The position numbers were made by a program, and so were the translations under genes. From Vulcanisaeta thermophila (lineage in GTDB: Archaea; Thermoproteota; Thermoprotei; Thermoproteales; Thermocladiaceae), in the NCBI RefSeq assembly GCF_001748385.1, contig NZ_BCLI01000005.1:62001-126000 (forward strand): a DNA stretch of 64,000 nucleotides, given 5' to 3'. The notes below the pieces were generated by a model. That model was not told the DNA's origin and searched no databases. It worked only from the letters and a program-made list of their open reading frames with translations. Shown piece by piece: positions 32,279 to 54,956 of this stretch; positions within the stretch are counted from its first letter, which is position 1; each line of letters begins with the position of its first letter.

Positions 32279-32286
32279 CCCTTACT

Positions 32287-33539: not shown

Positions 33540-33551
33540 TTTTATAGCTCA

Positions 33552-34559
33552 TTATTCCCTGCCTAGGACTACTTTACCCCTCTTAATCAAGTAAGATATA
33601 ATACCAATATCGAAGAAAAGCTTAGCTATTAATTCGCGGAGCAATATATATATCAATCTCTCAAAGATATTCTTTGCGCCTTTTAACTTTAGTTTCTTTA
33701 CATCTCTAATAAGGAAACCTAAAATTCTATAGCCAAGCGAATAAGACAATAATAGAAATGATATAACTAATATAGGATAGGTAATGTGAGTGAAAAAGGC
33801 AAGTAAGAGCATTATGATCGATAAGTATACGGCCATAGGAACCGCATTAATCCTAGCTAGGTACAGCCATACTACTTTGTTGTTTTTCTTTAGATATGGA
33901 ATAGCAGTACGTCCATACCAAAGCTGTTGTTTCTTTAGATCATGAATGGTATGAGGGAAGCATCTTCTCACTGCGGTGTCAACAATTACATATTCTTTTC
34001 TTGGAGATACCCTAGAGACGAAGTCCACATCCTCGCCTAGTCCCAGCCTCACATCAAACAACTCCTTCTCAAATACTTCCCTCCTAAATCCAGCCAAGAG
34101 ATACAAAGGTTTTCCGTTAAAACCAAATAATAGTGATGTTTCCAGTGCTTGCTGTCTTTCTAGCCATGTATGCTCGTTAGCTATATATGTAATAGCAACA
34201 TGTTTGCCCTTTTTAAGTCCATTAACAATCTTGTATATAGCATTTTCGTCTGAACTTAAATCGAAATCTGCATCGAATAAAACCACGTATTTTCCGTTGG
34301 AATTTAGTATGCCCAGGTTTCTAGCATTTGCCGGTGATTTTAATGGGCCCTCTTCCCTCAGTACTTTAACTGGGAATGGGCTTCTTCTTTGAAATTCCTG
34401 GAGGATTTCGTATGTTCCATCGGTGGAGCCCCCGTCAACAAATATTACTTCTATGGCTTTGTATGTCTGCTTTGCTATACCATTAAGTAGTGGCATTATT
34501 CTCCTGGCCTCATTCTTGACTGGAACGATTATACTTACTAACTCATTCTCATTACTCAT
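33552..34559 (-). CDS. Glycosyltransferase family 2 with C-terminal membrane segment
   Basis: ATG 34559 overlaps the stop of the upstream GT4 as ATGA; the longer frame from 34604 would overlap by 49 bases and is unlikely. The 335-residue enzyme has VSIIVPVKNEARRIMPLL, VIFVDGGSTDGTYEIL, YVVLFDADFDLSSD (DAD), GLGEDVDFVSRV and a membrane pair near residues 230-270 (AVYLSIIMLLLAFFTHITY). It is a membrane-bound GT2 acting on a lipid-linked acceptor at the inner face. Confidence 0.85.
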   Translation of the reverse strand: MSNENELVSIIVPVKNEARRIMPLLNGIAKQTYKAIEVIFVDGGSTDGTYEILQEFQRRSPFPVKVLREEGPLKSPANARNLGILNSNGKYVVLFDADFDLSSDENAIYKIVNGLKKGKHVAITYIANEHTWLERQQALETSLLFGFNGKPLYLLAGFRREVFEKELFDVRLGLGEDVDFVSRVSPRKEYVIVDTAVRRCFPHTIHDLKKQQLWYGRTAIPYLKKNNKVVWLYLARINAVPMAVYLSIIMLLLAFFTHITYPILVISFLLLSYSLGYRILGFLIRDVKKLKLKGAKNIFERLIYILLRELIAKLFFDIGIISYLIKRGKVVLGRE

Positions 34560-35764
34560 AGGTTGCTGATTACCTGGTTGAACGTTTTTACAAATGATTC
34601 CCATGAGTAGTATTTATGGGCTATTTCCCTGATTATTGATGGTTTGTACTGGCTTGTGTTTTCGACCACGTTTATCAATGCATTTATGAATGCCTTTAGG
34701 TTGTTTTCCGTTACGTAGGGTGTTGCTATCCCCACGTACTTTATCTCCCTAGGGTTTGGCATGTCCATTAGTGTTGGGCTTACTACGGGCTTTCCCAGGG
34801 CTAGTGCCTCCATGACCGCAACACCGATGCCTCCGTAGTATCCTGGTGTTGCTGGTAGGAAGTAAACATCCATTGCCTTTACTAGCTTTATGTACTCGTT
34901 GTGTGGTAGGAATTCGTAAGCCATTATCCCCTTTGCCCTCAGGGTTTCTGCGGTTTTCCTATTGAGGCCTGTAACTATCAATGTTATGTTTTTCACGGCT
35001 TTTCTTACCTCACTCCATATTTTAACTATGTAATTGGCACCTTTTAATGTGCTGAATTCCTCCCTGAATACCCCCACGTATGTCCCCATGACTATGTTGC
35101 CTTCTGGTATACCGAGTTCCCTCCTGGTTTTGATTACTTCGTCCTCGGTGGGTGGTTTTAGTTCGTTGAAGTCTACGCCCATGGTTCTGATAATCACCTC
35201 GGCATCCGTCCCCAGCTTCTCGAGGTACTCCTTCTCAGCCCTATTCAGTACGAATATTGCTCCCTTAACCTTTGTCAATATTTTTTCTCTTCTTAATTTT
35301 GATAGTGCCTTTGTGGTGTTTATTGGGTTTGGGTTTATTGCATCTCTTGGGCTTGGTGGTGTGGATCCGTGGTGTTGTAGTATCATGGGTCTGTCCAGTA
35401 GTTTTCTAATGATTTGTTCTGAGTTGAGTGCTCTGTACTCATGTATGTATGGTACTGCATTGTACTTTTTAACGAGGTACTCCGTGATCCTTGTCATGTT
35501 TGGTGAGTACTCGCTCCATTTCCACAGTCTCTTTGATGGTGATAGGTCTATGGTTGGTGTTAGGATTATGGGTATTCCATCAACTATCTTGGTTATGGCT
35601 TCCTCGGAACCGCTTGGTCTTATGGCAATTACCTGGTAACCCCCGTACTTCCTCAATGCCTTTGCTGATCTGAAGTGCCACCCTGCGTTATCTTCCTCGG
35701 CTATTGTGCCTGGTCTTATTGGTGGTATTGAGTGGTGTAGTATGCTCAGTATTAATTTATCCAT
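34556..35764 (-). CDS. Glycosyltransferase family 4
   Basis: 402 residues. VMGTYVGVFREEFSTLKGAN marks the start of the donor domain, NITLIVTGLNRKTAETLRAK follows, and GGIGVAVMEALALGKPVVSP is the donor-binding motif, with Gly in place of the first Glu of E-x7-E. The N-terminus ILSILHHSIPPIRPGTIAEE is atypical. It overlaps the polysaccharide deacetylase by 8 bases and the next GT2 by 4. Confidence 0.8.
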   Translation of the reverse strand: MDKLILSILHHSIPPIRPGTIAEEDNAGWHFRSAKALRKYGGYQVIAIRPSGSEEAITKIVDGIPIILTPTIDLSPSKRLWKWSEYSPNMTRITEYLVKKYNAVPYIHEYRALNSEQIIRKLLDRPMILQHHGSTPPSPRDAINPNPINTTKALSKLRREKILTKVKGAIFVLNRAEKEYLEKLGTDAEVIIRTMGVDFNELKPPTEDEVIKTRRELGIPEGNIVMGTYVGVFREEFSTLKGANYIVKIWSEVRKAVKNITLIVTGLNRKTAETLRAKGIMAYEFLPHNEYIKLVKAMDVYFLPATPGYYGGIGVAVMEALALGKPVVSPTLMDMPNPREIKYVGIATPYVTENNLKAFINALINVVENTSQYKPSIIREIAHKYYSWESFVKTFNQVISNL

Positions 35765-36362
35765 GAATGGCCTCGCTTAATGTTTTAAATCGTAGGTTGA
35801 ACATTTTTAGGTATTCTATTGTTGCTTTAATCAGGGTTGGGTTTTCTCTGTGCATTACTATACTTATTAATTTTGGTTTTCCCGTGATTAACTTTATTAT
35901 TAGTTTTGGTAAATGCCTTATCCCCATACCCCCTATTGCGTACCTTATGAACCTTTCGTTCCACCTATTGTACTCGCCCATGGTTCTCCCGTATGCGAAG
36001 TACCTGCTTGCCTCCTCGATTACTTCGTTGTTGAATGATCCGTAGGGGTATGCTATGCCTACCTCGTAATCGATGCCCCACCTCCTTAGTGTGTTTATGC
36101 TGTTTATGAATTCCTCCCTGATTTTTTCTCTACCTATCCTTGTTAGGTCTGGGTGGGTGTGGGTGTGGGATCCTACTTCGTGGCCCATGTCCATGATTTC
36201 CCTTATTAGTTTCGGTTCTTTTGTGATTAGTTTTTCGCCACTATATTCGGTGAGTCCTGTTATTAGGAAGAATGTGGCTGGTATGTCCATTTTGTAGAGT
36301 AGCTTTGCGTATTCGTATTGTTTTATGTACCCATCATCGAAGCTTATGGCTACGTAGGTCAT
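35757..36362 (-). CDS. Polysaccharide deacetylase (NodB/CE4 domain)
   Basis: 201 residues. The CE4 motifs are all seen: VAISFDDGYIKQYEYAK (motif 1, D-D), EVGSHTHTHPDLTRI (motif 2, H-x3-H metal ligands), and AYPYGSFNNEVIEEA (motif 3). It removes N-acetyl groups from an amino sugar of the glycan or of a lipid-linked precursor; it has no signal peptide, so it probably acts in the cytoplasm. It overlaps the GT4 genes on both sides. Confidence 0.85.
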   Translation of the reverse strand: MTYVAISFDDGYIKQYEYAKLLYKMDIPATFFLITGLTEYSGEKLITKEPKLIREIMDMGHEVGSHTHTHPDLTRIGREKIREEFINSINTLRRWGIDYEVGIAYPYGSFNNEVIEEASRYFAYGRTMGEYNRWNERFIRYAIGGMGIRHLPKLIIKLITGKPKLISIVMHRENPTLIKATIEYLKMFNLRFKTLSEAIHG

Positions 36363-37521
36363 GCTAACATTGCTTCCTGATAGACTTTGACGTACCCGTT
36401 TATCATGGATTCAAGGGAGAATTTAGGTGCGATGTTCAGGGCCCTCTGTGATAATTTGTTGTGTAGGTTTTTGTCGGTTAGTAATTGTATTATTGCCTCG
36501 GCATACTCCCTCTCATTGAGTATGTTAACCATTATGCCAGCCCCTGTCTCGGCTACTAACTCCATTGCGTAGGGGGCTTTGTGCGTTATTACTGGTTTGC
36601 CCATTGCGTATGCTTCTGCGATTACTATCCCGAAGCCTTCGGCTAGGCTTGGGTGTGTAAGTATCTTAGACCTTGCCAGTATCCTCATTGCTCTCTCTCT
36701 CTGGGTAATGAGCCGTGCATTATTACGTTGTTTTTCAGGTCTAGCTTCTCAATTAGTTTCCTCATTTCGTTAAATAATGGCCCATCACCGACTATGTCGA
36801 GTTTTGCGTTGGGTATTTCATTAACCACATGCCTAAAGGCCTTGATTAACCACCTAACCCCCTTATACTCCATCAACCTGGCGATGAAGGATACCCTATA
36901 ATCCTCGGGTTCCACCTCACTCTGTATTTTCCTTAGCCATCGTATGTTGACCCCATTATAGACTACACGAGCCCTCTTTAGAAACTCACCCTTTGTTTTG
37001 TTATCCATGTTTTTTACGGAATCCCATAATGCCGCCTTCGACACGAAAACCACACGCTTTACCTGGGGCTTGGTAAAGATGCTTATTAGCCTGGCCGGTA
37101 TTGAGTGACTTATGTCGAATAGTATGGATCTGATTTTATCCTCGCCACCCATTAGTATTCTTATTCTTCCTAGCATGGGTGTTCCGTGCACTGTGACCAC
37201 GGTGGGTGCGTACCTAGTTATCCAGGGTAGGTAGCCCGTTATACCGCTGGCGTCATGTATGATGTCTGGCTTCAGTTCTTTTACCACCTTCATCATGTCC
37301 ATGCCCCTTAAGCTGTAGAACCATAGATCCTTGGGTGGTATTGGTGGTGATAACAGCAGGCGCACGTTAGTGCTGTTAATTGTATTTAATGAGTGGCTCC
37401 TTGACACTACATGGACATCGTGACCCAGTGCCTTAAGTCCCTGGGCCAATTCGTATGCGAACGTTCCGACCCCACCAAACGTGTATGGTGGGTACTCAGC
37501 TGTTACTATGAGGGTTCTCAT
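36359..37521 (-). pseudogene. Glycosyltransferase family 4, split at an (AG)6 repeat
   Basis: The first frame (36685-37521, 278 aa) has VTAEYPPYTFGGVGTFAYEL, VVFVSKAALWDSV and VSFIARLMEYKGVRWLIKAF, then ends PREREQ-stop. The second (36359-36688, 109 aa) starts MRILARSKILTHPSLAEGFG and holds the donor motif EGFGIVIAEAYAMGKPVITH. Removing one AG unit from the repeat at 36691-36702 gives a continuous LPRERAMRILARSK of normal length (about 386 aa). As it stands the stop and the next ATG overlap (ATGA), so two polypeptides could be made by coupled translation. Slippage could switch the gene on and off. Confidence 0.75.
36691..36702. repeat. (CT)6 / (AG)6 microsatellite inside a GT4 gene
   Basis: Six CT units on the plus strand, AG on the coding strand, at the point where the GT4 frame breaks. 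A change of one unit restores the frame. Confidence 0.9.
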
Positions 37522-39358
37522 TGATGTAGATGATTGCGTATTTACTATTAAATACTACGGCTGCGGGGCTAAGTGGTTTGTAAACTATTGTTGGTGGTAC
37601 GCCAGGACCCATTGCGGCATAGTATGGGGTATTCGTCGTGTTAGTCACGACATACATGTTCAGGGTCATTGTTTTATTCTCTATAAAGGCCACGGTCGAC
37701 AGTGCGTTAATCATGGCATTTGTGGGGTAACCACCAACCCACCCGATTGTTGGTGAGTACCAGGGTGATGTGCCCATTAATGGTGAGTATACGTAGATGT
37801 TCTTCACGTTATTTGATAATAAATTGATCACTACATATGAGATTTTAATTATTGACTTCGTTATTGGGGGTGGATTGGTGGCGTGTATTTTTGCGTATTC
37901 TACCGGTGATATGTTTGGGTCGCGCGCCGCTAGCACGGTTACTACGATTAGTAGTGCTATTAGGAATATGGTTAATGCCCTTCTTCTTTTTAGCATTGAT
38001 ATTGTGTATCCCGCTATTGGTAGTATTAATGGTATTGCTGTGTAAGCATTGGTATTGATTGGATTCCCACCTCTGAAGAATAGCATTTGCAGTGCCGCTA
38101 GTACGGGTAGTACTATGCCCACTATTAGTAGGGTTATTATCCAGGGATCCTCCCTCCTCTTTTTAAATAATACGTATAGTGCGTATGCCGCTGAGATTGA
38201 TAGTGCTAATGCCCAGGGTAGTGTCTGTGCTGGATTAACGTGGGCAAAGAGGATAAAGTGGGGTGCCGCTGTCGTAGTAGATACTGTCGTTGTCTTTACG
38301 AGTATGCTTTGTATTTTGTTTACGAGCCCATTTATGAAATCTGCAATTATTGGGTATATGTATGTTAGGTATCCATTTGTGTATGTTATTACGATTAATG
38401 TGATTATTAGGTATATTATTGATGCAGTGATTACAGTGTTTGTTCTACCTGCTCTATGCCTTAGTGGCATGTAGAGTTTGAGTTTTGGTAGTACGTAAAT
38501 GGCTATTATTAGGGCTGGTGGTATGAATAGTTCTAGTATGGCTGTTGTTAGTGATAGCATGGCTGCTGCGTAGCTTATGGCACTGATTGCTATGTTTCGC
38601 CAAGCGTCCCCGTCTTTCGTTATTTTTATTAGTGCCAGTGTGGATATTATGACTAGTAGGTTTGACATCCATAGGTGTGGGTTGAGTGTTAGTGCTGTTT
38701 CTGGTGTGATGCCTAGTAGTAGCATTGCTATTATGCCCGCCCTCTTATCGTTGAATAGGTATATTGTTAATGTGTAGATTACTAGGTCAAAGGCTATGGT
38801 GAAGATTGAGTACCATATGAACCAGGGGATTGCGGAGAACCACGGCATGTTGAGTGTTTTGTCTAGGAATGTCATTACGGCCACCTGTGCTGGGAATGGG
38901 TTGTAGGCTGGGTTATGTGCAAATGAGTAGTTCCAGTGTCCTGTTACGTACATGCCTCTGTTCATTTCCGCTCCTTCTCCGAGGCCTATGCCGCTTTGTG
39001 ACACTTGTGCGTTTAGTATTGTTATGTGTAATGTGAGTATTCCTGGTAGTACATATTTAATTAATTTGTCTATATCATGTTCGTTTGCCATGGTGGGTAT
39101 TAGGAGTAGTGTAATTGAGGCTCCTATTAGTGTTAGGTATAATGTTTCATTGTTTTGCTGTATTGGTGTGGCTAGGTTTAGGAATAGCGTTATTGCGACT
39201 AACACGTTCCCCGATATTGCCATTACCCTTGCCGTGCCACTGCCTATTAGGTCTGTGTAATCGTGTTCTTTATCATGTACCTTCACTAGGATTGTTGTGA
39301 ATATTGTTGTTAGGATTATCGCGGTTATTGGTAGTAGGTTTGTGAATGTAAGGTTCAT
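37496..39358 (-). CDS. Large multi-span membrane protein (GT-C-like)
   Basis: 620 residues with about 12 membrane spans in the first 480 and an outside C-terminal domain of about 130 (NIYVYSPLMGTSPWYSPTIG, VYKPLSPAAVVFNSKYAII). An early loop between spans carries GLGEGAEMNRGMYVTGHWNY, an acidic, aromatic loop like the catalytic first loop of GT-C transferases. It would use a polyprenyl-phosphate sugar outside the membrane. The precise family is not clear to me. It overlaps the GT4 downstream by 26 bases and starts 2 bases after another GT4. Confidence 0.65.
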   Translation of the reverse strand: MNLTFTNLLPITAIILTTIFTTILVKVHDKEHDYTDLIGSGTARVMAISGNVLVAITLFLNLATPIQQNNETLYLTLIGASITLLLIPTMANEHDIDKLIKYVLPGILTLHITILNAQVSQSGIGLGEGAEMNRGMYVTGHWNYSFAHNPAYNPFPAQVAVMTFLDKTLNMPWFSAIPWFIWYSIFTIAFDLVIYTLTIYLFNDKRAGIIAMLLLGITPETALTLNPHLWMSNLLVIISTLALIKITKDGDAWRNIAISAISYAAAMLSLTTAILELFIPPALIIAIYVLPKLKLYMPLRHRAGRTNTVITASIIYLIITLIVITYTNGYLTYIYPIIADFINGLVNKIQSILVKTTTVSTTTAAPHFILFAHVNPAQTLPWALALSISAAYALYVLFKKRREDPWIITLLIVGIVLPVLAALQMLFFRGGNPINTNAYTAIPLILPIAGYTISMLKRRRALTIFLIALLIVVTVLAARDPNISPVEYAKIHATNPPPITKSIIKISYVVINLLSNNVKNIYVYSPLMGTSPWYSPTIGWVGGYPTNAMINALSTVAFIENKTMTLNMYVVTNTTNTPYYAAMGPGVPPTIVYKPLSPAAVVFNSKYAIIYINENPHSNS

Positions 39359-39360
39359 GG

Positions 39361-40500
39361 TTACTCCCTGTATATTTCAGTCATTAATATAGCTATTTCA
39401 CTCCAGGTCCTTAGGTACTGTGATTTGCTTTCCCTGGCCTTTCTTGTGATTTCCTTGATCATCTCGGGATTGCTTAGTAGGTTGGTTATGGTGTTTTTTA
39501 GGGCTTTTACTGATGGTTCTGTTATGATTGTGTGTGGCATGCTCAGTCTTGGTATTGAGCCCACATTGGTCGCCACTAATGGTTTGTTTCTGGCTAATGT
39601 TTCAAAAAGTATCAGTGGGTATGACTCCCCCGCATGCTTGCTGGGTAGGATCACGAATTCTGACTCGTCTATTAGTGCTATTTTATCTTCTTCGCTTACG
39701 AATCCCGTGAATATTACATTCTCACTGAGTTTTAGGTCTTTGGTGAGTTTTATTAGTTTGTTATAGTATTTTTTGTTTCCTGTCCCTGCTATTACCAGTT
39801 TTACGTCTTTTATGGCGCCTTCGCTGATTAGTGATTTATAGGATCTTATTAGTAGGTCAATGCCCTTTAGTGGGTCTATTCTGCCTACGTATAGTATGAA
39901 TTTCGAATTGCCTATGTTGTACTTGCTCCTTACGTAGGCTGTGTTTTCGTTATTTTCTAGGTAGTGTTTTGGTATTCCGTGGGGTATTACCGTTGCTTCT
40001 ATTCCGTACTTTTGTTTTAGTAGTTCGTGTTCATATTGGTTTGTGGTTAGTGCTTTGTTGGTTATTTTCTTGACTTTCTTTGTGATTAGTACTTGATATG
40101 TGTAGCCTATGGTTCTTATTAGTGGGTTTACGTGGTGTTTTAGGTAATCGACCCCTATGAAGTAGACTACGTGGTTATTAATCCTGGAGTTTCTAAGTAT
40201 GGTGTAGTTGAAGTAGCTGTTGTGTGACCATGCGTGTATTATGTCTGCTTTTCTTAGGATTTCGTTTGGTATTTCTCTTGGTATTGTTAGGTCTGGGTAT
40301 ATTAGTCGTGTTGCTTTGATTCTGTGTATGTGTACTCCGTTTATTTCTTCGTCTTTGGGTCTTTCTGTGGCTCCGTATGTACTTGTTATTACGTGGACCT
40401 CGTGGCCGAGTTTTACCTGTTCCTCGGCTAGGTATTTAATTGCGTTTTCTAGTCCTCCTATTACGGGCCAGTAGTGGTGGTGCGTGTGTACTATTATCAT
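39361..40500 (-). CDS. Glycosyltransferase family 4
   Basis: 379 residues. VHTHHHYWPVIGGLENAIKY at the N-terminus, FILYVGRIDPLKGIDLLIRS in the donor domain and the motif ESYPLILFETLARNKPLVAT (E-x7-E). It starts one base after the stop of the epimerase, so the two are coupled. Confidence 0.9.
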   Translation of the reverse strand: MIIVHTHHHYWPVIGGLENAIKYLAEEQVKLGHEVHVITSTYGATERPKDEEINGVHIHRIKATRLIYPDLTIPREIPNEILRKADIIHAWSHNSYFNYTILRNSRINNHVVYFIGVDYLKHHVNPLIRTIGYTYQVLITKKVKKITNKALTTNQYEHELLKQKYGIEATVIPHGIPKHYLENNENTAYVRSKYNIGNSKFILYVGRIDPLKGIDLLIRSYKSLISEGAIKDVKLVIAGTGNKKYYNKLIKLTKDLKLSENVIFTGFVSEEDKIALIDESEFVILPSKHAGESYPLILFETLARNKPLVATNVGSIPRLSMPHTIITEPSVKALKNTITNLLSNPEMIKEITRKARESKSQYLRTWSEIAILMTEIYRE

Positions 40501-40501
40501 G

Positions 40502-41443
40502 TTATGGGAGTCCTAGTTCTTTGATTAGTGCTTTTGTTGTGTTTTTTATGGCTTCTTTGCTGTTCATTTTTGGTTTCCAGCCTAGGTTTTTCAGTTTGTC
40601 TATTTTTAGGGCTATTTTCTTTACGTCTCCTGGCCATCCTACGCCGTGGAGTACTGGTTTGTGTATGATTCTTCTTTCGGTGCCTAGTGTGTTTAGGATT
40701 GTTTTTACGACTTCGTCTACGGTTATCCAGTCTTCGTTTGCTACGTTGTATACTTCGAAGTCTGTGATTGTTTTTTCGTGGGCTGTTAGTATGGCTTCTA
40801 TTGCGTCGTCTATGTATACGTAGCTCCTTATCTGTGTTCCGTCTCCTAGGACTTCTAGTTCTTCGTTGTTTTGTTTGATTTTTATTATCATGTCATGTAC
40901 GATGCCGTGTCTTAGTCTTGGTCCTACGACGTTTGCGTATCTTAGAATGATTGCTTTGATTCCGTAGAGTTTGGTGTATGCGTGTATTAGGTTTTCGCAT
41001 GCTGCTTTGCTTGCTCCGTAGACTGACACGGGCTTTATTGGTGCGTTCTCGTCTACGGGTATTTCCTCTGGTTCTCCGTATACGGTGCTTGATGATGCGA
41101 AGACGAGCCTCTTCACGTCTTTCTTTCTCATGGCTTCGAGTAGGTTGAAGGTTGCAACGACGTTTTCGTTGAAGTGTATTTCTGGGTCTGTGGTGCTCAC
41201 CCTGACTTCTGGGTTTGCTGCGAAGTGGAAAATTACGTCTACGTTTACGACTGCCTTTAGGGCATCGTCTTTAATTTTCAAGTCCCCTTTCATGAATTCC
41301 ACCTTGTTTAATACGTGGCTTATGTTTTCTATTTTCCCACTGCTTAGGTTGTCTATGATTCTTACCTGGTAGCCTCTTTGTAAGAGTTTATCTACTAGGT
41401 GGCTTCCTATGAATCCTGCTCCGCCTGTTACTAGGGCTTTCAT
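40502..41443 (-). CDS. NAD-dependent NDP-sugar epimerase (GalE-type, extended SDR)
   Basis: 313 residues. The cofactor motif is TGGAGFIGSHLVDKLL (7-22), then VRIIDNLSSGKIENI, and the catalytic YGASKAACENLIHAY (Y-x3-K near residue 147) with SSSTVYGEP before it. It converts UDP- or dTDP-sugars between C4 epimers or makes a related precursor. First gene of the longest operon here (41443 down to 31271), so it supplies the sugar donor for the transferases that follow. Confidence 0.9.
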   Translation of the reverse strand: MKALVTGGAGFIGSHLVDKLLQRGYQVRIIDNLSSGKIENISHVLNKVEFMKGDLKIKDDALKAVVNVDVIFHFAANPEVRVSTTDPEIHFNENVVATFNLLEAMRKKDVKRLVFASSSTVYGEPEEIPVDENAPIKPVSVYGASKAACENLIHAYTKLYGIKAIILRYANVVGPRLRHGIVHDMIIKIKQNNEELEVLGDGTQIRSYVYIDDAIEAILTAHEKTITDFEVYNVANEDWITVDEVVKTILNTLGTERRIIHKPVLHGVGWPGDVKKIALKIDKLKNLGWKPKMNSKEAIKNTTKALIKELGLP

Positions 41444-41460
41444 GTTATAATGTTGTGTAC

Positions 41461-41468
41461 CTTATATG
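41461..41468 (-). promoter_or_regulatory. TATA box for the long glycan operon
   Basis: On the minus strand catataag lies about 22 bases before the ATG at 41443, close to but slightly nearer than the usual spacing. Confidence 0.4.
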
Positions 41469-41516
41469 TTTTTCATTATTATTGTTTTAGTATCGGTCAT
41501 GATTTTTGTTAGAACG

Positions 41517-41600
41517 TTATGCTTCTTCAATAGCTTTATCGATTCTTGATAACATTATGAGATCCTTTGTCATTCTGATGGTCTTGGTTTTTATGTTCAT
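41517..41600 (-). CDS. 27-codon frame coupled to the GT2 gene
   Basis: ATG 41598-41600 overlaps the GT2 stop as ATGA and opens MNIKTKTIRMTKDLIML, ending KAIEEA at 41517. It is too short to judge; it may be the leftover start of a lost operon gene. No family is recognised. Confidence 0.25.
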   Translation of the reverse strand: MNIKTKTIRMTKDLIMLSRIDKAIEEA

Positions 41601-42508
41601 GTTTGATATTCCTTTAGGCCGTTGTTGAATCCTTTTAGTATGTGTTTGATGTGCCATGGTCTGTAGAGTGTTAGTAGTGTTAGTGAGGTGAGTATGTACC
41701 ATATGCGTTGTGGTGTGTGTTTTTGGTGTTTTAGTATGAATTGTATGTGGTTTCTTGCTTTCCAGTAGAATCTCTGTGATTCTGGTATGGTTAGTCTGTC
41801 TCCGCCTTCTTCCATTCCGAGGTGTATGACGTACGTTTTTGGGTCTATGAGTAGTTTGTAGCCCATTTTCTTTATTTGTTCTTGTACGTCGCTTTCTTCG
41901 CGGTATCCTGTTGGTGTTTCGAAGAGTTTATCATACCTTACTTTAGCGGCTATGTCTTTCCTTGTCATGTAGAAGTGTGTTAGGTATTCTGCGTATCTAG
42001 GTCCTTTTTCAACGTTTAGAAATATGAAGCCTGTGATTTTTGTTAATGGGTCTGCTATGTTTATTGGGGTGTTCAGGAAGAAGTCCGGGTCTGCCGTCCT
42101 TCTTCTGGCCATTATGACTCTGCCGCCCACTGCCCCTACCTCTTTGAGTTTCCTGAGCCAGAGGGCCATGCGTGCTAGGGAATCTGCTTTGGGGAGTATG
42201 TAATCATCGTCTGCCATAACGATGTACTCGGCGTCTAACTCGCTTGCAATCTCTAATAATTTGTTCCTGGCGTTTACGGATCCTCTTCTGCCTCTGTATA
42301 GTTCGTATATGATTTCGACGTTATTTTGTGATTTCCTGGCTTCCTCTAATACCTTTCTATACATGTTTATCTCTGTGTCATCGGGGGAGTCCGCTGCCAC
42401 CACTAGGTAATCCACATAGCCTTTAATCCAGCTGGGTAGTGTTAATTTCAGTATGTGGGGTCTACGGTATGAGGGTATTAAGACCGCTATCCTAGGTCTT
42501 CTATTCAT
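41597..42508 (-). CDS. Glycosyltransferase family 2
   Basis: 303 residues. IAVLIPSYRRPHILKLTLPS, YIVMADDDYILPKADSLARM with DDD near residue 100, and REESDVQEQIKKMGYKLLID with an E-E/D catalytic-base pair. A C-terminal amphipathic part (HTPQRIWYILTSLTLLTLY) may touch the membrane. Its ATG overlaps the stop of a GT4 remnant (ATGA), so it once followed a complete GT4. Confidence 0.85.
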   Translation of the reverse strand: MNRRPRIAVLIPSYRRPHILKLTLPSWIKGYVDYLVVAADSPDDTEINMYRKVLEEARKSQNNVEIIYELYRGRRGSVNARNKLLEIASELDAEYIVMADDDYILPKADSLARMALWLRKLKEVGAVGGRVIMARRRTADPDFFLNTPINIADPLTKITGFIFLNVEKGPRYAEYLTHFYMTRKDIAAKVRYDKLFETPTGYREESDVQEQIKKMGYKLLIDPKTYVIHLGMEEGGDRLTIPESQRFYWKARNHIQFILKHQKHTPQRIWYILTSLTLLTLYRPWHIKHILKGFNNGLKEYQT

Positions 42509-42642
42509 TGTAAATGCCTGGTCTTAGGATGTGATGTGTATGTCATGGCCCTTGATGCCATGTACTCGGCCACTTTCTTCATGACTTCCTCGATGCCCCC
42601 TATTACGGGGTGGTAGAGTGGTGCTACGTGGACGATTCTCAT
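42505..42642 (-). pseudogene. GT4 glycosyltransferase remnant (N-terminus only)
   Basis: A 45-codon frame reads MRIVHVAPLYHPVIGGIEEV, the start of a GT4 enzyme like the one at 39361. It continues KKVAEYMASR, then goes out of frame; GHDIHI is visible in another frame, and it stops at 42505. About 340 residues are missing. Confidence 0.6.
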
Positions 42643-42672
42643 GTTGGGTGTCTTGCTTGGTTGGTGCGGTGT

Positions 42673-43263
42673 TTATGGGTCTTTTGTGAGTTCTTCGAGG
42701 GCTTTTGTGAGTTGTGGGAAGGCCTTTTCGAGGTTTTCCTTCAATGCTTCCTTTATTAGGTCGTAATCGCTTTTTCCGTGTTTTCTGAGCCAGTCTTGAA
42801 CAGCCTTCTTATCGCTTTCCACTTGTTCTCCGTAGAGTTTAATGAGTTGTGCTAGGTTCTCTTCTATGCTCTTCTTATGTCCCTGTACTGCTATGTATAT
42901 TGTTGCTTTTTCGTCGCCGTCTCTTTTTACTATGATTTTCCAGCAGCCTTCATGTAGGGTTTGGTGTTCTTGTATGGTGAAGCCGTGCTCCTTCAGCTTC
43001 TCCTCGACTTGCTCTAGGTTATTTACGTGTTCCCTATCTATTAGGATGATGTAGGTTCTTACCGTGGTTTTTGAGAATAGGAGGGCTAGTCCTCTAATGG
43101 CTACAGTGAGCCCTCCATAAGTGATGGGAGCCCGTGGGATCCTGATGATCTTGCTATGGTTATACTTTTCGGCGACTCCGCGGAGGATCCTGCGCTCTCT
43201 ACCGCCGTCGCCTATGATTGCGTAGATGTTTGCGGGGCCTAATTCTCCCTCTTCCACTCTCAT
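42673..43263 (-). CDS. Toprim-like / DUF3226-type partner of the AAA15 ATPase
   Basis: 196 residues. The N-terminus NIYAIIGDGGRERRILRGVA takes the place of the Toprim glutamate motif (usually VEGxxD), and TYIILIDREHVNN (about residue 70) the DxD motif, so the residues are altered. A C-terminal region of about 90 residues is helical and charged (EENLAQLIKLYGEQVE). The gene follows the ATPase gene after 9 bases. ATPase plus separate Toprim protein is the layout of OLD-related and PARIS-like defence pairs. The assignment rests on pattern only. Confidence 0.5.
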   Translation of the reverse strand: MRVEEGELGPANIYAIIGDGGRERRILRGVAEKYNHSKIIRIPRAPITYGGLTVAIRGLALLFSKTTVRTYIILIDREHVNNLEQVEEKLKEHGFTIQEHQTLHEGCWKIIVKRDGDEKATIYIAVQGHKKSIEENLAQLIKLYGEQVESDKKAVQDWLRKHGKSDYDLIKEALKENLEKAFPQLTKALEELTKDP

Positions 43264-43272
43264 GTTCCTATC

Positions 43273-44316
43273 CTATAGCTTTAGTTCGTCTATGATTTTT
43301 CTCACGTCCACGCCGCTTTCGAATAGCTCCTCTACCTCGTCTAGTTCCATGGCCTTCCATTCCACGGTGTCGTCACGTGTCTTCCTTAGTATGATGACTC
43401 TGTAATCCTCGGGTTTGGTCTTCGCCGATGTTAGTGCGTAGAGTAGGTCTATGCTGTGGGTGGTTAGGACAACCTGCCTGTCTGATGAGGAAAGCCATTC
43501 AATTAGTAGTTCTAGGAGGCTTGGGTGCATTGCAACTTCCACGTCGTCCCACAGGATCATTTTGGGGTTTAGGTACTCGGTTGTTAGGTACATTAGTACG
43601 AATCTCTTTATGCCTTCGCCCATGGAGTCTATGTCTATGTAGAGTGGGCCTGTGGAGTCCTTAACCTCGGAATCCTTAACCTCTTTTCGTAGGCAGAGCC
43701 TCTCCCTCCTCACTAGGACTTCCGTAAATCTGTCGTAGACTGCTTTTGAGATGAAGTCCTCCGCGACTTTCCTGTGTATACCCTGCTTCTCGATCCATCT
43801 TAAAACCTCCTCTTTGAGCACGAAATCCGTGAGGGTTTCGTAGTAGTTGGTGTGGTTTGGTATGTAAAGGGCTGTTATGTTTCTTTCAGAGCCGTGTCCC
43901 AGGGCTTTTATGAATTCTTGATAGGTTGTGAGGGGGACTTCCTTACCATTGAGTTGGATCTTTGGGTTGCCTTGGCTGTCAAGTGTTATTTCGACATTAT
44001 CAACACTCCACTTTTCAGGGCCAACTTCAAACTCGACTTTACGGGCCAACTCGTAGGTAATACGTGCCTCTCCAAAGTACCCGTAGATTAGGGATGGGGG
44101 GCTACCATGGAGTTTCTCTACGAAGTCTTTGAAGGATGTATTGTAGGGTGGTGGTAGAGTGGGGAAGGGTATTGTTAGTAGGTAGAGTGCTTCTAGGATT
44201 GCTGTTTTGCCTGCGTTGTTTCTACCGATGATTACGTTGAACCTTGATAGTTCCAGGGGTTTCGTGAGTCTTCTTATACCCCTGAACTCCTTGATGTCGA
44301 TTGTTTTCACGAGCAT
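43273..44316 (-). CDS. OLD/AAA15-type ABC-fold ATPase
   Basis: 347 residues. N-terminal IDIKEFRGIRRL and Walker A GRNNAGKT (31-38), a central insert of about 170 residues, then MGEGIKRFVLMYL (signature-like helix), MILWDDVEVAMHPSLLELL (Walker B, D-D-V-E, and HP) and VVLTTHSIDLLYAL (switch His). This is the SMC/RecF-like fold used by defence ATPases. It is co-transcribed with the Toprim-like gene. No Toprim domain is fused, unlike full OLD proteins. Confidence 0.8.
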   Translation of the reverse strand: MLVKTIDIKEFRGIRRLTKPLELSRFNVIIGRNNAGKTAILEALYLLTIPFPTLPPPYNTSFKDFVEKLHGSPPSLIYGYFGEARITYELARKVEFEVGPEKWSVDNVEITLDSQGNPKIQLNGKEVPLTTYQEFIKALGHGSERNITALYIPNHTNYYETLTDFVLKEEVLRWIEKQGIHRKVAEDFISKAVYDRFTEVLVRRERLCLRKEVKDSEVKDSTGPLYIDIDSMGEGIKRFVLMYLTTEYLNPKMILWDDVEVAMHPSLLELLIEWLSSSDRQVVLTTHSIDLLYALTSAKTKPEDYRVIILRKTRDDTVEWKAMELDEVEELFESGVDVRKIIDELKL

Positions 44317-44334
44317 GTTCTTCAGCCCTATTCT

Positions 44335-44646
44335 CTACAGTGGTGTTGGTGTGGTGCTATTTAAATGGTTGGGTATGTGTTTATTGTTTAAGTGTCTGGG
44401 CCTATGTGTGCGTGGCTGTGGATTGGGGTTGAGTATGTTTGTTTCTTTTAGTATTCTGGCTTCGTCACGGTGGGTGTTGGGTCTGTGTGGCTTTAGTATG
44501 GAGTATAGTCTCATACCTATGTTAATGGGTGCTTCTGCTGTTAGGTGCAGGTGTTTTTCAATGGCTCCTCTGGGTATGGGGTCCTTTAAGGATTCAGCAC
44601 TGTTTACCTTACTCCGTAGGCTCTTGAGTATGTTCGTGTAGCTCAT
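44335..44646 (-). pseudogene. HepT-like (DUF86) HEPN remnant
   Basis: From ATG 44646 the translation SYTNILKSLRSKVNSAESL is followed by DPIPRGAIEKHLHLTAEAPI and IGMRLYSILKPHRP. This follows the HepT pattern (RxxIERHLQxxxEAxxDIG) and includes Rx5H. After about residue 75 the frame turns into low-complexity Asn/Pro/His, and the second half of the HEPN domain is lost. No MNT nucleotidyltransferase partner lies next to it. Confidence 0.45.
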
Positions 44647-44682
44647 GGTCAATGTGAGCTTCTGTTTCAGGATCATGGGTTC

Positions 44683-45048
44683 TTACTTAGTGATGGAAGA
44701 GATTTTTTGTTGTAAATCATGGTCGCAGTTCACCATCATGTATATCTCCTTCTTCTCCATGTTCGTCTTACGTCTTGCTAAAGCGGGTATTAGTTGATCT
44801 GTTCTACGGCGTTTGTGTATTATTGCCACGATTATATGATCGGGATTTGGCTTTGGGATTTCGGGTTGGAAGCGTCCCTGCTTTATTGCTTCTATGGTTT
44901 TCTGTAGTTTCTCTATATCCTCTATGTTTGGTCGTTCGGTTTCCTCAACTATTACTATGTGGTTCTTCGTCACGATTGCGTAGTCGGCGTGTTTCATGTT
45001 AAGTAATCCTTTACTTTTAATGAGTTCTTCCAGGTCTATTTTCTTCAT
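44683..45048 (-). CDS. Small partner of the second ATPase, possibly PD-(D/E)XK-like
   Basis: 121 residues. The core HADYAIVTKNHIVIVEETE places an Asp one strand before E-E-T, the layout of the PD-(D/E)XK nuclease core with Thr in place of the usual Lys. Helix NIEDIEKLQKTIEAI and strand HIIVAIIHKRRR follow. It overlaps the ATPase gene upstream by 32 bases, so the two proteins are made together. The nuclease idea is an inference; the protein could be only an adaptor. Confidence 0.5.
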   Translation of the reverse strand: MKKIDLEELIKSKGLLNMKHADYAIVTKNHIVIVEETERPNIEDIEKLQKTIEAIKQGRFQPEIPKPNPDHIIVAIIHKRRRTDQLIPALARRKTNMEKKEIYMMVNCDHDLQQKISSITK

Positions 45049-46432
45049 ACTGTCTCAGCATTATTGATGCTCTTTGGTTGGCGAGTTCCTCGTCCACCTT
45101 TGCGAATTCATCCTCTGGTATGCCCTCCTCGTCTACATGTAGTTGTTCCACGGTGGTTGCGCCCTTGGTCTCGTCGGCTTTTAATAGGTAGGCCGCGACT
45201 TTGTATGGCTTTAGTACCTGGTTCTTCGTGATTCCTAGTTCTTTCAATTTCTCTTGTTTTAACCTGGAGGCCATGATTAGGTTGTTGAAGATGGCTAGGA
45301 GTGTAGGGCTGTGTGTGGTTATTATTACTGTTTTTCCTCTGTTCACGGCGTTTGCCACTAGTTTGGCAAAGGCTATCTGTGCGCTTGGGTGGAGGTGGGC
45401 CTCGGGTTCCTCTATGATTACAATGTAGGGCTCTTCATGATTTGCTAGTGCAAGTGCGGTTGTTAGGACTTCACGTATGCCCGATGGCGCTTGTGAGAAG
45501 TGTAGCCTTTTGCCGTTCCACATCTTGAGGTAGATGGTGTAGACTCCTCCTTCGAGGGTAATGTTTAGGTCGCAGCCTAATTCTCTGAGTAGGGGCTTAA
45601 TTATGTCGAGGTTCCTCGGTCTTTTGCTTGCATCCTCTGTTAGCTTGTAGTATACTTTTACGAATTGTTCGTCGGGGTAAGGAATGCCTTTAACTATCGT
45701 GGGGAAAATGTACGGCTTGAGTAATACCCTAGAGATCCCGGCGCGGCTGTCTGGGAAAAGAGCAGCGAAGAACTCTGAGCAAATGGGAGGAACGATGAAG
45801 AAGGGGTTAAAGACGATGCAGATATAATGCGCGAGAAGCTTAATAATAATGGAGACTAAATCACCCATGTTCGTGACGTTACCTTCCTCTATAATCTTCT
45901 CGTAAAGCACTCTTAGTTGTCCGGGCTTGGGGACCTCCGTCTTTAGCTTCTCGATAAATTCTGTGTATTGTTTAATGTAGCGGGCCTTAACGCCTTCCCT
46001 ACTTAGTGAGATCTCCATGGCTGCCCCAGACCCCTCAATTAGTATTGATGCCTCGCTCTCGCCTTTGCGAATGAGTTCCCACGGCTTAGTCATAAATACT
46101 GCTTGGAGTGTTTTTTCAACTTGGGAGGCCACGGCCTCTGGTAATGTCTCGATGTATTGTTTAATGAGTTCTCGAAGTTCCTCGGGTTGTTTTCCTGACT
46201 TAATCTTGTCTAGGATTGCTTTGGCTAATTCGTGCACTTCGGGCTTGGTTGTTACTTCATCAAGAAGTTTATCTAAGTCGGGTGTAAACATGAGGCTCCA
46301 TATTAGGTATGTGAGTAGTGACTTGCCTACGCTGTTTTTGCCTATTAGGATTGTTAGGGGTTTAATGGTTAGTTCGGCTTGTTCAAAGGGGCCTATGTTC
46401 CTCAACGTCACCTTGGCGTTGGTCATACTCAC
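45017..46432 (-). CDS. AAA15/RecF-like ABC-fold ATPase
   Basis: 471 residues. VTLRNIGPFEQAELTIKPL and Walker A GKNSVGKS (31-38), then a helical insert of about 250 residues with a hydrophobic patch (ICIVFNPFFIVPPI), the signature FSQAPSGIREVLTTALAL, Walker B YIVIIEEPEAHLHPSAQ and the switch TVIITTHSPTLLAIF. All ATPase residues are intact. With its 121-residue partner it forms a second module beside the ATPase/Toprim pair. Confidence 0.8.
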   Translation of the reverse strand: MSMTNAKVTLRNIGPFEQAELTIKPLTILIGKNSVGKSLLTYLIWSLMFTPDLDKLLDEVTTKPEVHELAKAILDKIKSGKQPEELRELIKQYIETLPEAVASQVEKTLQAVFMTKPWELIRKGESEASILIEGSGAAMEISLSREGVKARYIKQYTEFIEKLKTEVPKPGQLRVLYEKIIEEGNVTNMGDLVSIIIKLLAHYICIVFNPFFIVPPICSEFFAALFPDSRAGISRVLLKPYIFPTIVKGIPYPDEQFVKVYYKLTEDASKRPRNLDIIKPLLRELGCDLNITLEGGVYTIYLKMWNGKRLHFSQAPSGIREVLTTALALANHEEPYIVIIEEPEAHLHPSAQIAFAKLVANAVNRGKTVIITTHSPTLLAIFNNLIMASRLKQEKLKELGITKNQVLKPYKVAAYLLKADETKGATTVEQLHVDEEGIPEDEFAKVDEELANQRASIMLRQYEENRPGRTH

Positions 46433-46581
46433 TTTACTAAATCCCGCCTTGGAATTTACTTATTATTCCTTTGTTTCCTTGCCCTGGTCCATGTAATTTT
46501 CGTGGCTTCTCCCGAGATAATATACCGTGTGCTCTGCATTGCCTTAATTCGCTAGTTCTTCCTGGGTTGGTGTTGGCATGT

Positions 46582-47592
46582 TCAGTTTTTCAGTGCTCTT
46601 TTTACGGCCTCCCTATGTATCGGTGTTTGCCATGCGAAGTACTTCCCAATGCCCAGTTCTGGGTCTCTGTCTGGTGGTGGTTGGTCGATCCATGTCCTTT
46701 GTTCCCTGTGCCATATTCTGATGATTAGGTTGTTCTCGATTAGTTTCTCCATTAGTGGCGTTGCCCTGGCTGCCTCGTCATAGATTACGTCTGGGTCTTC
46801 AATAGCCTGCTTTAGTATTTGTGCTTGTTCCTTGTTTAGGGTTTTTATCATGATGTCTAGTTTTCTGTCCTTTATCATGTCATTGATTATGCCGTTGATG
46901 TCCCAGTCTGCCCTGTATAGTTTTTCTAGCATTTCTGGGTTTCCGCCGGTCCATTTCCATGCTTGTTCGGGGTCTGGTTTTGGGTTTGGTAGTTGGTTGT
47001 GTAATTCCCTGAAGCCTTCCTTGGGCATGTTCCACATGATCTTTATTTCGGCCCATCTATGACGGCCGATTCGTTCCCATGTCACTCCCTCGCTTGTGGC
47101 TACTATCACCACGATCCTCTCGTACTTTACTGAGGGGTACTCAATCATGTTGAGGAAGCCCTTTACGAGTGTTTCTGCCTTGTCTAGTCCAATGGCTTGG
47201 AAGACGTCATCCGCAAGTAGTGCTATTCTGCTTGTGAGTCTTTTTCTGACTGCGTTGTAGAGTAGTTCCACGGCTGTGTCTATTAGCCTCGCGGCATCGC
47301 CAATTAATAGTGAGCTAATGCCCGTTATTAACTGTCTTAATCCCTCGGTTAAAACCACCTTATCTTCCCCAGCCCTGGACAATGGGCTTATGTATGAAAC
47401 TTCGTAACCATGTTCTTTAAGTACTTCAATGGCTTGTTTGAGGAGTGCGGATTTGCCGCAGCCCTTGGGTCCGTATATTACCAGGGGCCACCAGGTGCCT
47501 TTATTAGCTAGCTCCTCGATCTGCTTTATGGCTGTTTCTCTGTTTATGAATTCTATTTCGTGGTTTGCGAATCTTAGTTTGGTTCTTTTCAT
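46582..47592 (-). CDS. Archaeal AAA ATPase (tandem copy 1)
   Basis: 336 residues. KLRFANHEIEFINRETAIKQ before Walker A GPKGCGKS (41-48), Walker B SRIALLADDVFQAIGLDKAE, sensor VVIVATSEGVTW and GRHRWAEIKIMW (arginine-finger region), then KWTGGNPEMLEKLY, the conserved GGNP loop of the archaeal ATPase family (STAND-related), and a winged-helix-like tail. It is closely related to the next gene over its whole length. Function is unknown; such ATPases are multicopy in Thermoproteales. Confidence 0.8.
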   Translation of the reverse strand: MKRTKLRFANHEIEFINRETAIKQIEELANKGTWWPLVIYGPKGCGKSALLKQAIEVLKEHGYEVSYISPLSRAGEDKVVLTEGLRQLITGISSLLIGDAARLIDTAVELLYNAVRKRLTSRIALLADDVFQAIGLDKAETLVKGFLNMIEYPSVKYERIVVIVATSEGVTWERIGRHRWAEIKIMWNMPKEGFRELHNQLPNPKPDPEQAWKWTGGNPEMLEKLYRADWDINGIINDMIKDRKLDIMIKTLNKEQAQILKQAIEDPDVIYDEAARATPLMEKLIENNLIIRIWHREQRTWIDQPPPDRDPELGIGKYFAWQTPIHREAVKRALKN

Positions 47593-47656
47593 GGTTTGTG
47601 TGTTGTGGGGTTGGTGATGCTTAGGGTTTTGCTTGCTTTCTTAATGCTGTGTGTTT

Positions 47657-48667
47657 TCATTTTGTTTCCTCCAGTGTTCTTTTTATGGCTTCCCTGTGGA
47701 TTGGTGTTTGCCAGGCGTAGTAGGTGCCTATGCCTAGTTCGGGGTCTTTCTCGGGTGGTGGTGTGTCTATCCATAGGTATGGGTGTCTTTTCCATATTTC
47801 TATGATTAGGTTTTTCTCCACTAATTCCTTGATTAATTTGTCTAGTTCTGCTTCGGGTGTTGTCCATAGGTAGTCTGGGTCCTCCACGGTTTTTTCTAGG
47901 TGTTTTCTCCATTTTTCTGTGAATCTGCGGTTTATTCCCCTGCTTAGTCGTACTTCCTCGATTACCTTGTTGACGTCCCAGTGGTTTTTGTAGAGTTTCT
48001 CCAGCATTTCTGGGTTTCCCCCTGTCCATCTCCATACTTCCTCGAATGGTGGTTTTGGTTCTGGTATTTGGTTGTATAGTTTTTCGAGTCCTTCCTTGGT
48101 CATGTTCCAGGTGATCATTATTTCTGCCCATCTGTGTCTGCCTATTTTTTCCCTTGTGGTTCCTTCGCTGCTTGAGATCAGTACTACGATCTTCTCGTAA
48201 TTTACTGAGGGGTATTCTATCATGTTTAGGAGTCCCTTGACTAGTTGTTCGGCTTTGTCGAGGCCTATGGCTTGGAATACGTCGTCTGCGAGTAGTGCGA
48301 TTTTTCGGGTTAGTCCTTTTCTTACGGCGTTGTAGAGTAGTTCTATTGCTGTGTCTATTAGTTTTGCTGCGTCACCTATTACTAGGGATCCGAGGTCCAC
48401 GAGTAGTCGCCTTAGGCCTTCTGTGAGTATTACCCTGTCTCCCTCAGACCTTGATAGTGGGTTTATGTATGAAACCTCGTAGCCGTGATCCCTGAGAACC
48501 TCAACTGCCTGCTTAAACAATGCAGACTTCCCACAACCCTCGGGTCCGTAGATGACTAGGGGCCACCAGGTACCCTTATCGGCCAGTTCCTCGATTTGTT
48601 TGATGGCTACTTCCCTATCTACGAACTCCACCTCCTGCCCCGCAAACCTTAACCTGATTCGCTTCAT
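47657..48667 (-). CDS. Archaeal AAA ATPase (tandem copy 2)
   Basis: 336 residues, same architecture and length as the gene downstream: RLRFAGQEVEFVDREVAIKQ, Walker A GPEGCGKS (41-48), KIALLADDVFQAIGLDKAEQ, GRHRWAEIMITW, RWTGGNPEMLEKLY and the ending GIGTYYAWQTPIHREAIKR. Most differences from copy 1 fall between about residues 230 and 300, where the C-terminal domain would meet its partner or nucleic acid. A decayed third relative is at 11400-11820. Confidence 0.8.
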   Translation of the reverse strand: MKRIRLRFAGQEVEFVDREVAIKQIEELADKGTWWPLVIYGPEGCGKSALFKQAVEVLRDHGYEVSYINPLSRSEGDRVILTEGLRRLLVDLGSLVIGDAAKLIDTAIELLYNAVRKGLTRKIALLADDVFQAIGLDKAEQLVKGLLNMIEYPSVNYEKIVVLISSSEGTTREKIGRHRWAEIMITWNMTKEGLEKLYNQIPEPKPPFEEVWRWTGGNPEMLEKLYKNHWDVNKVIEEVRLSRGINRRFTEKWRKHLEKTVEDPDYLWTTPEAELDKLIKELVEKNLIIEIWKRHPYLWIDTPPPEKDPELGIGTYYAWQTPIHREAIKRTLEETK

Positions 48668-48695
48668 TCTAGGCTTAGTCGCTGTGTGATTCTTT

Positions 48696-48905
48696 TCACG
48701 GTGGGTTTGTTTTGGTTGATTCCCTGTATAGCTTATCCTTGGATGTCTCGTTTATGTTTACGGCTTTGTTCATGGTCATTAGTGCGTAGTATGGCGTTGC
48801 TGTGTAGGATTTGCCCGTGTTGTTGGGCCCTATGAGCACGGTCACTGGTCTGAACTCGACCTCCCCCTTCGTTATTGGTCCTGGTTTTCGGCCTTTGGTT
48901 TGGCT
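48696..48905 (-). pseudogene. AAA15-type ATPase remnant (Walker A end)
   Basis: An open frame reads ITKGEVEFRPVTVLIGPNNT and continues GKSYTA, a Walker A of the AAA15/RecF type. It ends after ETSKDKLYREST with a stop at 48696. The rest of the gene is gone. It marks a third ATPase module once present here. Confidence 0.5.
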
Positions 48906-53871: not shown

Positions 53872-54956
53872 ACTAACTCCCTATTCCACATGTTCCTAAT
53901 CATTGCGGCTAGGAGTATGAATTGGGTGTATAACCAGGTCCTAAACAGCCTAACCACAACCGCAAGCAATGCGCCCAGGCCTAGGAGTGATGCGGCGGTT
54001 ATTGATCCCTGTGACGCCGCAATCAACAGTAGCGCCAACCCAGCAATGAGCACCCATGGGTTGATCACGTGTAGGAAGAACTCGGTGTACACTATCTCCT
54101 TGAACCCCCTGGGGATCCTACTGCCGTACTTGGTGATGGTCTTTATGAAGTGTTGAATTAGGTGTTGAGCCCTCCTCAATCTCCACCTATGGTAATTCAC
54201 TGCCCTGGGGACTAGCTCCTGGCAAACAACGTCTCTGGTTATCAAGGCCCTGTAACCGTTTATTGCCAGTACCGTGGCCATGTGGCTATCATCAGCACCG
54301 ACATCGGTTGGGAATCCCCCAAACCTCATTATTAAGTCCTTCCTAAACGCCGCGAGCTCCCCGTGGAATATTGGTGTGGAGTACCTGTTGCTCTCGCCAA
54401 TCCTAAGTACCGTGTAGTAATCCCTATACGTGGACTCTATGGTGTTGTTAGTGATTGGGGCCTTTACACAGGACACGGCACCCACGCCCTCGCTCATGAG
54501 GAGCTCCACAGCCCTCCTCAGCGAGTTGCCCAGCCATTTGGAATCCGCGTCCGTGATCACGATCACGTCACCGGTGGCGTGTTTCAGAGCCTCGTTTAGT
54601 GCATGTGCCTTGCCCAGCCTAACCCCCTCATTTATCACCCTGCAGTTTAGATCGGGGTGTTCGCTGCACCACTTCATGGCTAGGGCTGCGGTGCCGTCTG
54701 TGCTCCCTGAATCGATCACTAGTAATTCCATTAATTCCCTGGGGTAGTCCTGTGCGTATATGTTGTCTAGCTTGCTGAGTATTACGTTGGATTCGTTGTA
54801 CGTGGGCAGTATTATACTGACCCTGGGCAGGTCATTGCTGTTGCGTCTTGGTTTTAATTCGTTCCTTGCCCAGCCCAGGTTTCTTAGGTAGTAATAGGTT
54901 GCCACTCCAAAGTGTATTGTTAGTAGTATCAGTGCGATGATGACCATGGGCCTCAT
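53838..54956 (-). CDS. Membrane glycosyltransferase family 2 (processive type)
   Basis: 372 residues. One N-terminal span, then VSIILPTYNESNVILSKLDN, VIDSGSTDGTAAL, VIVITDADSKWLG (DAD), GADDSHMATVLAINGYRALI (the TED-like base) and YHRWRLRRAQHLIQ, which occupies the place of QxxRW with His for Gln. Three or four spans follow at the C-terminus. The architecture is that of cellulose/hyaluronan synthase-like enzymes. It overlaps both neighbours. Confidence 0.85.
   Translation of the reverse strand: MRPMVIIALILLTIHFGVATYYYLRNLGWARNELKPRRNSNDLPRVSIILPTYNESNVILSKLDNIYAQDYPRELMELLVIDSGSTDGTAALAMKWCSEHPDLNCRVINEGVRLGKAHALNEALKHATGDVIVITDADSKWLGNSLRRAVELLMSEGVGAVSCVKAPITNNTIESTYRDYYTVLRIGESNRYSTPIFHGELAAFRKDLIMRFGGFPTDVGADDSHMATVLAINGYRALITRDVVCQELVPRAVNYHRWRLRRAQHLIQHFIKTITKYGSRIPRGFKEIVYTEFFLHVINPWVLIAGLALLLIAASQGSITAASLLGLGALLAVVVRLFRTWLYTQFILLAAMIRNMWNRELVWEKVEKDVAQ

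Follow-up and report, generated by a model that had tools for sequence, protein, structure and literature searches.

A 64,000-nt stretch of the Vulcanisaeta thermophila genome (contig NZ_BCLI01000005.1, positions 62,001 to 126,000; hereafter the window) carries on its minus strand four genes. A survey of related loci supports reading them as two modules of two genes each, independent of one another, and speaks against a single system of four. Each module pairs an OLD-like ATP-binding cassette (ABC) ATPase with a small nuclease-fold partner encoded directly after it, and the open reading frames (ORFs) of the window place them in the order A1 (ATPase) and P1 (partner) of module 1, a HepT-like ORF, then A2 (ATPase) and P2 (partner) of module 2. 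The original prediction had put the four genes head to tail on one strand with a gap of 9 bases and an overlap of 32, and the coordinates agree, as P1 overlaps A1 by 32 nt and 9 nt separate A2 from P2. Taking the analysis as a whole, we favor the interpretation that these are two independent archaeal pairs of an ATPase and a nuclease-fold effector, acquired at a cargo site and probably serving in defence. They would constitute two archaeal branches of such pairs with non-canonical catalytic residues.

The search for partner homologues covered 101 relatives, every one of the 81 genomes of the class and 398 Thermoproteota genomes, and the neighboring genes were read out at about 40 partner loci. 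The spread of both modules is patchy: of the 398 Thermoproteota genomes, 20 have P1 and 21 have P2. In essentially every readable locus, the gene just upstream of P1 encodes an A1-type ATPase and the gene just upstream of P2 an A2-type ATPase, with gaps that mostly range from −38 to +42 nt, and the order of ATPase then partner is still kept where copies are fragmented, frame-broken or cut by contig ends. Because partner homologues exist and always pair with the ATPases, the gene arrangement is well above chance. The original prediction would have failed if the partners never co-occurred with the ATPases or had neither proposed fold, and it came through this check. Six genomes hold both modules, which exceeds independence (hypergeometric P 0.0014, with the window excluded and phylogeny not controlled), and the two are adjacent solely in the window; in the other five genomes the pairs lie on separate contigs or far apart on one chromosome, as in G324, where they sit at about 182 kb and 2376 kb. 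Most carrier genomes hold one module alone, and tandem module copies occur in G013 and G024. Since each partner is tied to its own ATPase and the pairs are adjacent here alone, we regard them as two separate modules; of the two arrangements originally proposed, one system or two stacked ones, the second is the one that stands. A contig scan with the single P2 sequence gave one short fragment of no value, scans of viral contigs with P2 or either ATPase as a single sequence returned no relative, and a plasmid search for A2 gave no match.

The family matches of both ATPases agree with the RecF/AAA15 fold that had been proposed: A1 matches AAA_15 (5.7e-23) and AAA_21 (7.4e-18), A2 matches the same families (8.6e-17 and 6.8e-19), and each carries a Walker A motif and the TTHS H-loop with its switch histidine. 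The motif EEPEAHLHP had also been ascribed to both; A1 contains it, but the Walker B of A2 reads ILWDDVEVAMHP, so for A2 that reading was wrong. Among 16 A1 homologues, Walker A, EEPEAHLHP and the H-loop are invariant and A345 nearly so, and the best of 145 PADLOC models for A1 is PD-T4-4_A (1.8e-35). For the partners, searches of P1 and P2 against Pfam, NCBIfam and PADLOC gave no convincing match, and no PADLOC model matched P1 at E<=1. Alignment of 19 P1 homologues showed invariant D22, E35, H78 and C108 and a nearly invariant D44, along with the absence from all 19 of the lysine of the ExK motif, which is replaced mostly by T and otherwise by A or V. Bacterial relatives of A1 occur on viral contigs, where the next gene encodes a canonical partner of ~140 amino acids (aa) with RCDWLLI...VELKG at the matching place.

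We modeled P1 with AlphaFold2 (AF2); the predicted local distance difference test (pLDDT) score was 48.6 for the single sequence and 58.5 when ten bacterial relatives were aligned with it. The best Foldseek matches of the model built with the alignment include Nt.BspD6I, Avs4, XisH, R.BspD6I2 and BamHI, and those of the single-sequence model include Nt.BspD6I, Bax1, BamHI, Can2, Hjc and RecU, a set that we take to belong to the PD-(D/E)XK fold class; unrelated Ras-like and clamp-loader proteins are also among the matches. As the single-sequence model never saw canonical nucleases, the agreement on this fold was not imposed by the alignment. These two low-confidence models thus point weakly but consistently to a PD-(D/E)XK fold for P1, in line with the earlier description of this partner as possibly PD-(D/E)XK-like with an E-E-T sequence. 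A search of the P1 profile against PDB sequences returned a stretch of TPR-CHAT at 0.008, which we set aside as chance-level.

The top PADLOC model for A2 is AbiLi, matched over nearly its full length (1.5e-23, 82 bits, among 110 related models), and the LWDDxE form of Walker B is common to close A2 homologues. P2 has no direct Toprim match in Pfam, and its kinship is seen by profile-profile alignment: against a canonical DUF3226/OLD-TOPRIM clade, hhalign gave a probability of 98.8 and an E of 8e-17 over 175 columns. Of the seven members of that clade, six match DUF3226, four OLD-like_TOPRIM and one Toprim, and their motifs are mostly CEG..D, a motif II of the DxD/DxE type, and then EDH. On this profile evidence P2 belongs to a Toprim family, as a Toprim-like partner with altered motifs, much as it had first been described. 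Specifically, motif I in the P2 clade is G(D/N)G or ADG and never EG, such that Asp or Asn replaces Glu, and motif II is D-R-E-H or D-K-E-H instead of DxD; all five sequences of one alignment (A8) share I75, D76, R77, E78, H79 and E134. In the PARIS Toprim AriB, the E26A substitution at the equivalent of the motif I glutamate is inactive (PMC12409363), so P2 would either use a rebuilt site or be no nuclease.

The ATPases paired with the P2 clade mostly read (W/L/I)DDxE and those paired with canonical Toprims E(E/D)PE or EDLE. We considered a coupled loss of the catalytic glutamate in ATPase and Toprim and rejected it: several relatives with canonical Toprims likewise carry D as the second residue of Walker B (EDPE), and locus L095 is an exception in which a DREH partner is paired with an EDPE ATPase, so WDDxE is a clade trait and no proof of coupling. 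The P2 profile matched a macrodomain among PDB sequences at 0.3, again at chance level. At three loci (L101, L102 and L106), A2-type ATPases of 464-477 aa carry a ~200-aa N-terminal extension before the ATPase domain and are paired with Toprims that have GDG or ADG and DKEH motifs.

The HepT-like ORF between the pairs had been recognized as a HEPN remnant, and its match to PF01934 (3.8e-7) and the lack of an RX4-6H motif in any frame agree with this. We found no homologue of it at related module loci, no nucleotidyltransferase (MNT) among the neighboring proteins scanned and no antitoxin gene beside it. With RX4-6H missing and no homologues elsewhere, it is an isolated remnant that is part of neither module, and its candidacy as a system component was dropped.

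The inserted segment is flanked by the start of a GT4 glycosyltransferase gene next to P2 and by two PF01637 ATPases (46582-48667, minus strand) beyond A1. In the same-genus genomes G004 and G011, a full-length GT4 gene is followed by a PF01637 ATPase and the modules are absent; in G004, about 550 nt separate the start of the intact GT4 gene from the PF01637 gene, against 3.9 kb in the window, and in G003 and G011 different small genes take up the equivalent site. By this comparison the four genes sit in a glycosylation cluster, at a cargo site whose content varies and which is empty in G004. Around it, 31271-42508 and 54953-55861 hold an extended series of genes for glycosyltransferases, epimerases and membrane proteins, probably a cell-surface glycosylation cluster. 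Many other P1 or P2 modules have PF01637 ATPase_2 genes no more than a few kb away (L020, L022, L023, L028/L029, L056, L057, L064 and L100), in one case between two A1-P1 pairs (L028/L029), although the 2.02-Mb genome to which the window belongs has only about six PF01637 genes over the cut-off.

The features of the segment are collected in Table 1. The chosen starts of P1 and P2 agree with the N-termini of their homologues, and the 32 nt shared by A1 and P1 are therefore due to an extension of A1 at its C-terminus. The box ahead of A2 is the sole TTTAAA-type box on the minus strand from 42500 to 48800, as a consensus match only, and its distance from A2 means that A2-P2 could be its own transcription unit; its position suggests that the pair may be transcribed alone.

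Table 1. Features of the two modules and their borders, in window coordinates.
Feature	Position	Strand	Details
AT3, PF01637 archaeal ATPase, other border of inserted segment	46582..47592	-	PF01637 4.1e-73; found at equivalent site in relatives
A1, OLD-like ABC ATPase, module 1 gene A	45017..46432	-	471 aa; GKNSVGKS, IIEEPEAHLHP, TTHS
P1, small PD-(D/E)XK-like partner, module 1 gene B	44683..45048	-	121 aa; HADYAIV...VIVEET; ExK Lys absent
Possible archaeal TATA box, TTTAAATA	44360..44367	-	~49 nt upstream of A2; consensus only
HepT-like HEPN remnant, outside both modules	44335..44676	-	PF01934 3.8e-7
A2, OLD/AbiLi-like ABC ATPase, module 2 gene A	43273..44316	-	347 aa; GRNNAGKT, ILWDDVEVAMHP, TTHS
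P2, divergent Toprim partner, module 2 gene B	42673..43263	-	196 aa; IIGDGGRE, LIDREH
GT4 glycosyltransferase start remnant	42505..42642	-	45 codons; matches full-length GT4 starts in same-genus G004 and G011

In the mechanism we favor, by analogy with WonAB and PARIS as the best precedents, the OLD-like ABC ATPase would be the sensor or regulator and the small nuclease-fold partner its co-inherited effector. We infer that the two form a complex gated by ATP, in which the ATPase would dimerize on ATP and hold or stabilize the partner until a viral cue led it to release or activate that partner. The partner, acting through its altered site, may then cut nucleic acid and abort the infection; host tRNA or rRNA is a possible target, in keeping with what has been proposed for WonB and demonstrated for AriB. 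The two modules may have become stacked by chance or by clustering of defence genes at the variable cargo site.

Several observations weigh against this interpretation. The co-inheritance of ATPase and partner is supported by strongly correlated distance matrices (r 0.78 for 18 A2/P2 pairs and r 0.75 for 15 A1/P1 pairs, each with 0/2000 permutations reaching it), but species phylogeny was not removed from these correlations. For P1, the best Foldseek E against the PDB is 0.015, with none of the matches individually significant and models at the pLDDT given above, and hhalign of its profile with canonical ELK nucleases is weak (probability 23, E 9e-4). With catalytic residues altered in both, P1 and P2 could be inactive. 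The genes near the modules include a few Csx1/Csm6, DrmA and helicase matches, compared with a few AAA matches in controls, and show no clear enrichment in defence genes. Finally, OLD-type proteins can have housekeeping roles, as shown by archaeal Cran1, an OLD class 5 ATPase-nickase on which the cell cycle depends and which apparently has no antiviral function (PMC12796447).

A chromosome or nucleic-acid maintenance role like that of Cran1 would follow from this last precedent. Cran1, the closest studied archaeal OLD protein, is however vertically inherited across Sulfolobales, whereas the modules are found in about 5% of genomes and are absent at the same-genus site; this patchy spread favors conflict functions, and we consider a maintenance role improbable. 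One four-gene defence system, with both ATPases and both partners acting together, is more improbable still: the shared strand, the tight spacing and the excess co-occurrence noted above would fit it, but the pairs are separated in the other five two-module genomes, most carriers have one module, and a TATA-like box precedes A2. Conflict between mobile elements offers a different role, in which the modules would serve addiction or competition between plasmids or other elements, with the partner as toxin and the ATPase as regulator. The patchy, mobile spread, the cargo site beside PF01637 arrays, the tandem copies and the toxicity of WonB when overproduced all suit this role, which we nonetheless judge fairly unlikely, as WonB toxicity requires WonA (PMC12137116), unlike a simple toxin-antitoxin pair, and none of the genes in the examined segment was recognized as an integrase or plasmid gene.

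The altered catalytic residues can be read in two opposing ways. The partners might have lost catalysis and act as regulators or adaptors, leaving the effector role to the ATPases, as the constant lack of the ExK lysine in P1, the Asp or Asn in motif I of the P2 clade and the inactivity of AriB E26A would suggest. We find this doubtful, since decay would not keep the remaining acidic positions and the new histidines invariant (D22, E35, H78 and C108 in P1; D76, E78 and H79 in the P2 clade). Conversely, both modules might be active defence systems whose effectors have rebuilt metal sites, combining D-(R/K)-E-H with an Asp/Asn motif I in a Toprim gated by a WDDxE ATPase, and using the invariant histidine in a lysine-less PD-(D/E)XK protein. 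We regard this specific version as possible but unlikely; if true, thermophilic archaea would have two effector chemistries that are new, both built on a common ATPase-sensor chassis. For the broader interpretation as two probable defence pairs, the wider interest lies in a 2026 census in which, apart from restriction-modification, CRISPR-Cas and argonautes, few defence systems were generally detected in Thermoproteota (PMC12988326); two recurrent mobile pairs of an ATPase and a nuclease-fold protein would help to explain this scarcity, and the sole archaeal OLD-type protein studied so far is apparently not antiviral. The modules would also probe whether Toprim and PD-(D/E)XK effectors work with non-canonical metal sites, for which the survey supplies partner pairs, profiles and point mutants.

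Compared with known systems, module 1 would be the archaeal arm of a kind that joins an ATPase to a PD-(D/E)XK protein and includes PD-T4-4, WonAB and 'OLD-ABC + novel REase' (restriction endonuclease). WonAB has the two-gene layout of A1-P1, with an OLD-like ABC ATPase gene first and then a small gene, in WonAB for a PD-(D/E)XK protein, and both components are required and translation is arrested without DNA loss (PMC12137116). The bacterial A1 relatives share this layout, with ELK partners, and the likeness of A1-P1 to WonAB is one of layout and, more weakly, of fold. WonB has a catalytic K71, whereas P1 lacks that lysine and has invariant His78 and Cys108, so that the full D...ExK catalytic set of the WonAB and PD-T4-4 kind is not present; moreover, the WonAB census covers bacterial genomes only, and the A1-P1 branch is archaeal. 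PD-T4-4 was described by Vassallo 2022 (PMC9519451) and is listed with a PD-(D/E)XK nuclease (PMC10952713); A1 matches PD-T4-4_A best, but P1 matches no PD-T4-4_B model (PADLOC, E<=1). Gabija (OLD class 2) combines an ATPase-Toprim fusion with a UvrD-like helicase, whereas the genes here are separate and no helicase gene is adjacent. On viral contigs (L132-L167), many A1-like ATPases are followed by UvrD-like helicases, the helicase identity being read by eye, which gives Gabija-like pairs on contigs of phages or prophages.

Module 2 is an archaeal split ATPase and Toprim pair near AbiL and DUF3226. AbiL is listed among the systems of ABC ATPase plus Toprim (PMC12409363), and A2 matches AbiLi best, but P2 has no AbiLii match and its Toprim metal site is altered. 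In PARIS, whose Toprim AriB cuts tRNA (PMC12409363), ATPase and Toprim are likewise split genes, and AriA models match both ATPases (3.6e-26 and 1.6e-20); AriA is nevertheless the best match for neither, and P2 neither matches AriB nor has the glutamate of motif I (AriB E26). DUF3226 (PF11536) contains canonical members of the P2 family, each encoded after an A2-type ATPase. These DUF3226-like members have (C/G)EG, mostly with DxD/DxE and ATPases reading E(E/D)PE or EDLE, whereas the P2 clade combines G(D/N)G and DREH with ATPases that mostly read WDDxE.

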